DNA of 64,000 nucleotides from Labilithrix sp. GTDB taxonomy: Bacteria > Myxococcota_A > Polyangia > Polyangiales > Polyangiaceae. The notes beneath the pieces are model-generated. The model saw only the letters and a program-made list of their open reading frames with translations, made no database searches and was not told the DNA's origin. A program made the position numbers and the translations under genes. Location: assembly GCA_019637155.1 (NCBI GenBank), contig JAHBWE010000007.1, positions 310,001 through 374,000 of the forward strand. The letters are read 5' to 3'. Below, piece by piece: positions 15,023 to 19,037 of this stretch (position 1 is the stretch's first letter; every line of letters starts with the position of its first letter).

Positions 15023-16529
15023 GTGCGTGGCGCGTTGCTCCTCGCTCTGTTCGCGATCGTCGCTGCGTTCGTGCTCGGCGAAAGCTACATCGGACGACTC
15101 CCGAACCACGCGGGGTACCGGCTCGTTCACGTCGAGGACCACGTCGCGTCGCCGCCGCCCGAGCGCGCGCGCCGCATCGTCGTGATCCTCGTCGACGGGC
15201 TGCGGCGCGACGCGGCCGAGGCGACGAAGAGCGCTCAGCGCCTCGCCGCGCGCGGCCAGTGCCGGATCTCCGATCAGGGGAGCTACACCGTCTCGCGCCC
15301 CGTCTATGCGCTGCTCTCGACCGGCATCGAGTCCGATCGCAGCGGCGCCCGGAACAACGACCTCACCGCGCCGCTCGCGGCCGAGTCGTTCTGGGAGGTC
15401 GCGCGCCGCGCGGGCCTCCGCGTCCGCGCCTCGAGCCATCTCCCGTGGTTCGCGCAGCTCTTCCCGCGCGGCTTCGACGAGCTGCGGCACTTCCCCGAGC
15501 ATGAGCGCGACGTGTTCGCGTCGACGCCGATCGAAGACGTGCGCTTCGACGTCGACCTCTTTCACCCGCTCTACGTCGACGAGGCCGGCCACATGCACGG
15601 CGCACGCTCCGCCGAGTACGCCGCCGCCGTCGCGCGCGCCGACGCCGAGATCGCGGGCCTCCTCGAGCGCGTCGACCTCGATCACGACGACGTGATCCTC
15701 ACCGCCGACCACGGCCATCGCGCCGATGGGCGGCCACGGCGGCGACCAGCCCGAGATCCGCGAGGTGCTCGCGTGCTTCGCGGGCCCGCGCGTCCGCCAC
15801 CGCGAAGACCGCCGCCCCTTCGACGGGCGCCTCACCGCGCCGCTCCTCTCCCTCCTCGCCGGCGTCCCCTTCCCCGCCCAGATGCGCGCGGGCGAAGACC
15901 ACCTCGACGACCTCTGGGAGATCGTCGAGCTCGACCCAGCGTTCGAGGCCGACCGCCGCGCCGCGATCGCGCGCTTCCGCGCCGCGAACGAGGAGCAGCT
16001 CACGGCGTGGCTCGGCGGCGGGCCCGGCACGTGGTCGCGGCTCTACGCGCGCGAGCGCCACGGGCAGTGGCTCCGCATCGGCGTGCTCGCCGCCGCCGCG
16101 ATCGCGTTCGTCGCGTTCCGCGCGCGACGTCACCCGCGCGACGTCGTCTTCCTCGCCGTCCTCGCGCTCGCGGTGTGGCTCGCGCATCACGCCGTGCTCG
16201 GCGACTTCGACTACACCGTCATCAACCGCAAGATGATCTTCATGCGCAAGGCGTCCGCGGCCGCGGTCGTCGCCGTCGGCGCGGCGTGTCTGCTCCACCG
16301 CGCCGTGCGCGGCAGCACGCTCGCGCACCGCCTCGTCACCGCGCTCGTCCTCGTGCTCGTCACGAACCTCGGCCACGTCTTCGTGTACGGCTGGCCGCTC
16401 GGCTTCCCGCTCCCGCCGCAACCCGCGCGCTACCTCCCGTTCTTCATCGGCTTCCCTCAGGTCGCGCTCGCGCTCGCGCTCGTGGTCGCGTCCAGCGCGC
16501 GCTGGAGGGCGCCTTCGAGGAACACGTGA
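15023..16529 (+). pseudogene. Alkaline-phosphatase-superfamily phosphodiesterase/transferase, frameshifted
   Basis: Two frames together encode one enzyme. The GTG at 15023 starts a signal-anchor, then a type I phosphodiesterase/nucleotide-pyrophosphatase-like domain: IVVILVDGLRRDAA (first metal Asp), YTVSRPVYALLSTG (nucleophile region) and DVILTADHGHRA. The second metal motif continues as MGGHGGDQPEI in the next frame from 15726. It is followed by VLACFAGPRV and a C-terminal membrane region with about five helices. The shift lies between about 15712 and 15728 and equals one extra base. The architecture (periplasmic hydrolase plus membrane domain) resembles PIG-N/PIG-O-like phosphoethanolamine transferases. 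Either the gene is inactivated or the base is a sequencing error. Confidence 0.8.
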
Positions 16530-17641: not shown

Positions 17642-17822
17642 GAGGCGAGCGACGATACCAGCCGACCATGATGTCCGGGATCACCCATGGACCATGAGGA
17701 TGGATCATCGATGCCTTGCGTCATCACCCCGCCGCGAGGCCCTTCGTCCCCCCACACCCTGTTAATTCAATGGGTTGGCGCTGGATCATACGACGGCCTC
17801 CTACCTGCACTTACAAGTCGGC

Positions 17823-19037
17823 ATGGTCGCCAAGCGAACGGTCTGTCTCCTGGTTTCGTCTCTCGCTGCGCTCGGCGTGGCATGCACGGAGGCGAGCCCG
17901 CCGGACACCTCGAGCACCGAAGACCCCGTCGTCACGGACATCCTCTCGATGGACCGCAACGACGACGGGACGTACCGCGTTCGGTGCCTCGACTCCGCGA
18001 CCGGTCAACCGTACGTCGAAGAGAGGGTCACCGGCGACGAGATCAGGAACGACGCCGTCTGCAAGCGCAGCCCGTCCGCCGCGACGCCGGCGGCGCGCGG
18101 CACGTTCACCTGCGCTGGCAACGCCGAGGTGATCGCGCAGTTCTTGGGCGCCGACGGCACGGAGAAGTCGTTCCGGATCGCGACCGGCAACTGGGACACC
18201 TGCCGCTCCGTCGCGGCGAAGCTCGCCGAGACGCGCGCCCTCATCAGCGGTACGAGCCTCATCGCCGTCTGCGGCGGCAACGCCGAGGTCATTCGCTACT
18301 CCGTCACCCCGAACGGCGACGTGCGCGCGCTCCAGAAGATCGCGACCGGCAACTGGGACACCTGCCGCGCGATGCAGAACGAGATCAACCAGGCGAGCGC
18401 GATCGGCGCGGGCGTGCGCGGCTCGTTCCTCTGCGGAGGGAACGCCGAGCTGATCGCTCACTTCTTGATCCCCGACGGCACGGAGAAGTCGTTCAAGATC
18501 GCGACCGGCAACTGGGACACCTGCCGCTCCGTCGCGGCGAAGCTCGGCGAGACGCGCGCCGTCATCAGCGGCACGAGCCTCATCGCCGTCTGCGGCGGCA
18601 ACGCCGAGGTCATTCGCTACTCCGTCACTCCGAACGGCGACGTGCGCGAGCTCCAGAAGATCGCGACCGGCAACTGGGACACCTGCCGCGCGAAGCAGAC
18701 CGAGATCAACCAGTCGAGCGCGAGCGGCACGGGCGTACGCGGCTCGTTCGCCTGCACCGGGAACGCCGAGGTGCTCGCGCAGTTCTTGGCCCCCGACGGC
18801 ACGGAGAAGTCATTGAGCATCGCGACCGGCAACTGGGACACCTGCCGCTCCGTCGCGACGAAGCTCGGCGAGACCCGCGCCCTCATCAGCAGCACGAGCC
18901 TCATCGCCGTCTGCGGCGGCAACGCCGAGGTTCGCCGCTTCTCGATCACGCCGGCGGGAGAGGTCCGCGAGCTCGAGAAGATCGCGACCGGCAACTGGGA
19001 CACCTGCCGCGCCAAGCAGGCCGAGATCAATCGCTGA
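17823..19037 (+). CDS. Lipoprotein built from exact 107-residue tandem repeats
   Basis: Protein of 404 residues. The ATG at 17823 gives a lipoprotein signal (MVAKRTVCLLVSSLAALGVAC). After about 70 residues the rest consists of three 107-residue repeats (18099, 18420, 18741; the last is cut short by the stop). Each repeat contains two related modules of 54 and 53 residues that end in the same motif IATGNWDTCR. The first module carries GNAEVIAQFL-DGTEKSF; the second carries LIAVCGGNAEV and SVTPNGDVR. One Cys at the start and one in the motif give two Cys per module, probably a disulfide. Such repeats usually make extended binding or adhesive rods. Unknown family. Confidence 0.88.
   Translation: MVAKRTVCLLVSSLAALGVACTEASPPDTSSTEDPVVTDILSMDRNDDGTYRVRCLDSATGQPYVEERVTGDEIRNDAVCKRSPSAATPAARGTFTCAGNAEVIAQFLGADGTEKSFRIATGNWDTCRSVAAKLAETRALISGTSLIAVCGGNAEVIRYSVTPNGDVRALQKIATGNWDTCRAMQNEINQASAIGAGVRGSFLCGGNAELIAHFLIPDGTEKSFKIATGNWDTCRSVAAKLGETRAVISGTSLIAVCGGNAEVIRYSVTPNGDVRELQKIATGNWDTCRAKQTEINQSSASGTGVRGSFACTGNAEVLAQFLAPDGTEKSLSIATGNWDTCRSVATKLGETRALISSTSLIAVCGGNAEVRRFSITPAGEVRELEKIATGNWDTCRAKQAEINR
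18099..19037 (+). repeat. Three 321-bp direct tandem repeats inside the lipoprotein gene
   Basis: The string GCGACCGGCAACTGGGACAC occurs at 18180, 18342, 18501, 18663, 18822 and at about 18984. The spacing alternates 162 and 159 bases, giving an exact period of 321. Units are 18099-18419, 18420-18740 and 18741-19037. High nucleotide identity between units indicates recent expansion or gene conversion. Confidence 0.92.

Follow-up and report, generated by a model that had tools for sequence, protein, structure and literature searches.

In the 64,000-nucleotide stretch of Labilithrix sp. DNA that was analysed (the window; 70.5% GC, from a genome of 10.1 Mb), a predicted repeat lipoprotein was encoded on the forward strand at 17823-19037. 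The reading frame began with an ATG at 17823, ended with a stop codon at 19035-19037 and encoded 404 residues; a longer frame starting from a TTG at 17775 was also possible. By translation, residues 1-20 resembled a signal peptide and were followed by a candidate lipid-attachment cysteine at residue 21 (LGVAC; 17823-17885, forward strand). An N-terminal adapter domain of about 45 amino acids was placed at residues ~35-81 (17925-18065, forward strand) by a profile match with an E value of 3.3e-16, which is not an independent value, as this copy was one of the 11 profile rows. The repeats were confined to 18099-19034, residues 1 to ~85 consisting of the signal peptide, a linker and the separate adapter domain.

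Alignment resolved the repeat region into three 321-base units, each composed of an A module (53 amino acids) and a B module (54 amino acids), with strict A/B alternation over six modules on the forward strand. The A modules were module 1 (18099-18257), module 3 (18420-18578) and module 5 (18741-18899), and the B modules were module 2 (18258-18419), module 4 (18579-18740) and module 6 (18900-19034), the last having 45 amino acids and terminating, by translation and alignment, within or just past its own helix. Module 6 also formed the C-terminus of the protein, and the translation contained no separate C-terminal head domain. Tandem Repeats Finder reported an array at 18095-19030 with a period of 321, 2.9 copies, 90% matches and 0% indels, and a second repeat scan found copies beginning at 18088, 18409 and 18730 (spacings of 321 and 321), copies 2 and 3 being 92% and 86% identical to the first. 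Identity at an offset of 321 was 0.89, whereas 1000 codon shuffles averaged 0.34 and never exceeded 0.40.

The original prediction described exact 107-residue repeats. The period was exact at 321 bases, but the sequences of the units differed (DNA 85-92% identical), with pairwise identities of 92.2, 86.2 and 85.5% for nucleotides and 85.0, 79.8 and 77.8% for amino acids; the most similar were units 1 and 2. The division of each repeat into a pair of 54/53-residue modules was borne out by the string ATGNWDTCR, which occurred six times at spacings of 54, 53, 54, 53 and 54, with I preceding every copy. IATGNWDTCR, said to end the half-repeats, was indeed present in all six, but it coincided with a predicted strand-3-to-helix junction, with the helix after it, and not with the module end. 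Sixteen of the 54 alignment columns were invariant (C5, G7, N8, A9, E10, G20 and I27-R36), and the repeat region contained 12 cysteines, corresponding to two invariant cysteines per module.

Because the A and B modules were 38-43% identical in the pairs reported, while the units were far more alike, the alignments indicate that an old duplication of the half-unit preceded more recent duplications of whole AB pairs. The predicted recent expansion was moderately supported: in-phase modules 2 and 4 had identical codons at 45/47 positions, above the 32.3 expected from codon usage, but the units had diverged by 8-15% and in-phase modules 2 and 6 were less clear (27/34 identical codons, 23.5 expected). 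Gene conversion between A and B modules is not claimed, as their codon identity was near expectation (e.g., 15/19, with 13.2 expected). A 30-base core was identical in all six modules, with a naive chance of 5e-7 that was calculated with codon frequencies taken from three genes of the window and treated related copies as independent. Estimates of dN/dS by NG86 were 0.91 for units 1-2, 0.60 for units 2-3 and 0.49 for units 1-3, and YN00 gave 0.29 for units 1-2; given the high GC3 these values are crude and settle neither strong purifying nor positive selection, and the NG86 value near 0.9 also fits weak constraint. The repeats and the downstream gene had nearly equal GC3 values (0.96 and 0.97), a pattern fitting a resident gene, whereas GC3 dropped to 0.875 over the signal peptide and adapter.

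The gene following the repeat lipoprotein encoded a histidine kinase. Another genome of the same genus (G100) contained two neighbouring stretches matching the downstream kinase genes; its histidine kinase relative was 54% identical and had an opposite-strand reading frame upstream. In a further genome of the genus (G102), the phosphodiesterase-like gene that lies farther upstream in the window had a relative, 66% identical across 219 residues, with an opposite-strand frame after it. The repeat lipoprotein was not found by tblastn in four fetched same-genus regions (G100, G102, G091 and G099, the latter two fetched around relatives of a gene located at about 24 kb), indicating that the gene was gained here or was lost or moved there. 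The repeat lipoprotein is not in a conserved operon with the kinase, and a promoter and terminator scan found nothing. The phosphodiesterase-like gene (15032-16445, forward strand) matched its G102 relative in two frames that met near 15730, with 65% and then 53% identity on either side of the frame change, a frameshift that is genuine or else reflects a sequencing error.

The module had not been recognised in the original prediction, and searches across family, structure-sequence, phage, plasmid and contig collections likewise gave no convincing match. No Pfam model scored above its cut-off, the best being TGS (E 5.1e-4, 20.5 bits against a cut-off of 22.2), which matched a single module (residues 161-200) of the six; the best NCBIfam score was 15.3 bits against a cut-off of 398, and RCC1 had no match in the repeat lipoprotein up to E 10. 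The best PHROGs match (E 8.9e-4, a family of unknown function) was rejected, no stretch passing by itself, as were scattered PDB sequence matches (best E 0.076 with the protein and 0.083 with the profile) and a single Streptomyces plasmid match (E 1, 27% identity). The phage collection contained no module match at E<=1. Contig-collection scans, which detect only relatives having the short peptide patterns used, gave 30 pattern matches with the protein and 189 with the profile in GTDB genome contigs, and 8 and 79, respectively, in viral contigs; 0 were confirmed in either collection. A narrow literature check found neither the peptide GNWDTC nor a description of the module or the adapter.

Among 98 genomes of the family, the full protein matched in two, its own and one (G078) with a signal-plus-adapter match. 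The module profile (A1) matched in 3/108 family genomes at E<=0.01 and 2/317 class genomes at E<=0.003, its own included in both, and in 1/377 phylum genomes at E<=0.003, which was its own; these sets overlap, with one genome per species, and up to 21 (class) or 17 (phylum) first-look candidates were scored per genome. When the threshold was relaxed to E<=1, 45 of the 108 family genomes matched, again including its own, and no tandem set was seen outside the window. The profile search suggested with the original prediction recovered six modules in their own gene and, elsewhere, isolated weak matches only.

Matches in G025 (E 0.003 and 0.004) and G073 (E 0.005) were treated as chance, approximately one being expected per 317 genomes at E 0.003. 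In G025, two adjacent copies of a Cys-rich protein (contig C298; L006 and L009) had one match each, with a module-like GNAEATGQF...ACRS (E 0.003); this stretch is suggestive of a possible remote relative of the module, and is otherwise due to chance. The G073 match (L007) spanned profile positions 15-49 only. Four genomes of one genus (G073, G005, G092 and G051) all matched these positions, a pattern suggesting that they share a protein in which a similar short stretch occurs. The L007 reading frame contains LTAGTWDTASAMAAGVEQ, and in G073 a large reading frame adjoins it.

The adapter followed the consensus DIxSMxxRPDGxFDVxCxDG...VTAxQI...VC, and its profile (A6) had 42 positions, among which D, DG, V, C ... 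C were invariant. Thirteen strong matches were found in 4/108 family genomes, seven of them in the genome studied (the repeat lipoprotein included) and six in three relatives; 11 of the 13 had served as profile rows and two (L053 and L056) were new. At E<=0.01 the count rose to 6/108, including two genomes with weak matches. An earlier five-row profile had matched 1/60 family genomes, its own, and in the class 5/317 genomes matched at E<=0.001, all of the same family, with no more than 23 candidates per genome scored. A single-sequence search, which is independent of the profile, matched L002 (E 4.7e-6) and L003 (E 1.4e-4) across the signal peptide and adapter. No Pfam model matched the adapter in any adapter protein checked. 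The C-terminal partners were RCC1 repeats in L036 of the genome studied and L004 of G078 (strong matches to Pfam PF13540/PF00415) and a four-copy, Cys-rich module of ~60 residues in L034 and L038, for which no Pfam model scored above cut-off. The C-terminal parts of L035, L039, L041, L053 and L056 had no Pfam match at E<=0.001, and those of L002 (two proteins) and L003 (one protein) had none above cut-off. The adapter is an undescribed domain, absent from the description in the original prediction, and its partner differs from gene to gene. The two L002 proteins (G000:C8, 550-1473 and 1480-2307) were adjacent adapter lipoproteins with poly-serine linkers.

The lipobox consensus is [LVI][ASTVI][GAS]C, from which the GVAC of the repeat lipoprotein departs by a glycine at position -3. 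With start codons picked by eye, the strict pattern was present in 4/13 adapter proteins and a relaxed pattern of our own making in 8/13. A cysteine nevertheless preceded the adapter DG by 26-32 residues in 13/13 of these proteins, and for this reason a lipid anchor at a near-constant distance is the simplest reading. The predicted assignment as a lipoprotein draws its support from this family context, its own lipobox being imperfect.

Structure prediction, which had also been suggested as a check, gave a topology for the module and no confident fold match. One AB unit was modelled with AlphaFold, the other two units serving as the alignment (three sequences), and the five models had pLDDT values of 68-78. 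In the unit model (mean pLDDT 78, pTM 0.64), each module was predicted to fold as beta-beta-beta-alpha; in the first module, strand 1 contained C9 and the opening turn of the helix contained C39. The full-length single-sequence model was of low confidence (pLDDT 58.5, pTM 0.39) and agreed with the unit model in the B modules, but had a helix instead of strand 2 in each of the three A modules. The adapter was the best part of this model (68-88 in ten-residue blocks), predicted as three strands and a short helix. Searching solved structures with the unit model, Foldseek gave a best E of 0.046 and no confident match, and VIA gave a best Z of 6.0, a level that may mean merely a common arrangement. 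These top VIA matches, PH-domain halves 7vmb and 3ulb (Z 6.0 and 5.8), were similar to the module in strand/helix arrangement across ~50 residues, but they covered part of the PH domain only, at 14% and 6% identity; propellers and fucose-binding lectins scored lower (lectins Z 4.8 and below). A viral structure match (best E 4.7e-3, TM 0.20) was rejected, and Foldseek matches found with the model of the whole protein (best E 0.012, TM 0.19) were not considered meaningful, given its low confidence.

We propose, with moderate confidence, that the gene encodes an outer-membrane lipoprotein in which a lineage-specific anchor carries a multivalent binding array stapled by disulfides. A lipid anchor would hold the protein at the outer membrane, with the lineage-specific adapter just beyond it, and the adapter would in turn hold the C-terminal array of six modules, modelled as beta-beta-beta-alpha folds and arranged as three AB pairs. 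One disulfide probably staples each module, running from a cysteine at the end of strand 1 to one in the opening turn of the helix. Two loops would carry the invariant polar residues, GNAE in the beta1-beta2 turn and TGNWDTCR between beta3 and the helix. Judged by the predicted strand order rather than by model coordinates, an antiparallel meander would bring both loops to the same end, on the same side as the Cys pair, forming the same small putative site on every module. Six such sites in a row could allow multivalent binding of an extracellular ligand, such as a glycan, a peptide or the surface of another cell. The repeat architecture, the invariant columns, the Cys pairs, the unit model, the sharing of the adapter with lipoprotein-like proteins, some of them also repeat-bearing, and the resident-like GC3 of the repeats were counted in favour of this reading, and the glycine at -3, the low-confidence full-length model, the disagreement over strand 2 of the A modules and the NG86 ratio near 0.9 for units 1-2 were counted against it; the invariant residues could also be structural only. 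The role of a surface rod or adhesin, put forward in the original prediction, is plausible as a candidate function.

More tentatively, the adapter family may represent lineage-specific surface display, in which a lipid-anchored adapter has been fused, within one bacterial family, to changing extracellular partners, some of them newly born, tandem-expanded modules. A report on vesicles of Myxococcus xanthus (PMC4158809) describes many putative lipoproteins and an RCC1-repeat protein, and by analogy a surface or vesicle role for the adapter proteins is plausible. Should the adapter prove to be a general module for display or sorting, it would provide a handle for finding exported, fast-changing surface proteins of these bacteria, as well as an instance in which the birth of a new module could be observed.

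Other readings of the array were weighed. The array could serve as a passive spacer or stalk, or as a structural component of the matrix or envelope, providing length or rigidity with no binding. Duplication of whole AB units would preserve the exact period under such a role, and the invariant Cys, Gly and Trp may define the fold; the invariant polar N, E, D and T, however, cluster in two loops, and a protein that ends at module 6 has no C-terminal head to present. Because no head domain follows the array, the passive role is weaker than the binding array, and we consider it rather unlikely. Inhibitors are commonly built of small cysteine-paired tandem modules, a design that the array shares, and the modules could be inhibitor-like or carbohydrate-binding, shed or carried in vesicles to act against prey or competitors, in which case more copies would raise avidity. 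The many putative lipoproteins and the RCC1-repeat protein described for M. xanthus vesicles (PMC4158809) are in line with such a role, as RCC1 is one of the adapter partners. The module matched no inhibitor or lectin by sequence and none confidently by fold, fucose-binding lectins being among the lower structural scores, and an inhibitor or lectin function appears improbable.

An orphan gene confined to this lineage, under weak constraint, expanding and decaying with no settled function, was judged more improbable still. No convincing relative of the array was found in the other genomes searched, the gene was absent from the regions fetched around related neighbour genes in four same-genus genomes, and the NG86 ratio approached unity between the two closest units, as expected of such a gene. 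The frame, however, has stayed open across six modules with more than a quarter of the alignment columns invariant, and the lower ratios (NG86 in the other two comparisons and YN00 for units 1-2) also argue against it.

The multivalent array that we favour can be compared with other repeat proteins of the family. A sister repeat lipoprotein in the genome studied (L034; G000:C6:343083-344078, minus strand) had the same adapter and four modules of ~60 residues, and its relative in G084 (L038; G084:C87:22218-23171, minus strand) was 43% identical to it. Both resembled the repeat lipoprotein in joining an N-terminus of signal peptide, cysteine and adapter to a C-terminal tandem array with conserved cysteines, but their module (FGRSDSC...DGRC...AC) differed, with four cysteines per module and four copies in both species. 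The hhalign probability between the L034 module and our module profiles was 0.3% (Neff 1.7 and 2.6), and L034 matched at full length in 2/38 relatives. In the adapter-RCC1 proteins L036 and L004, the C-terminal part likewise repeats on the same adapter, but the repeats are the known RCC1, unlike the orphan module of the repeat lipoprotein. A three-module protein in G069 (L050; G069:C5:18073-18651, minus strand) had tandem modules and matched the adapter profile weakly (E 2.4e-4), over positions 16-41 only, and its modules, by eye, contained a cysteine, a DG ~15 residues on and a second cysteine, as in our module. It differed in its 42-residue modules and in lacking, by eye, a lipobox; no Pfam match was above cut-off, the hhalign probability against our module profiles was 0.2%, from a small number of sequences (Neff 1.7 and 2.2), and a profile of its modules matched in 2/106 family genomes (G069 and one weak match in G020), leaving the genome studied here unmatched. 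Tandem-repeat surface lipoproteins are common and already known as a class; in the present case the repeated module has no detected relative in the collections searched and is carried on an undescribed adapter.
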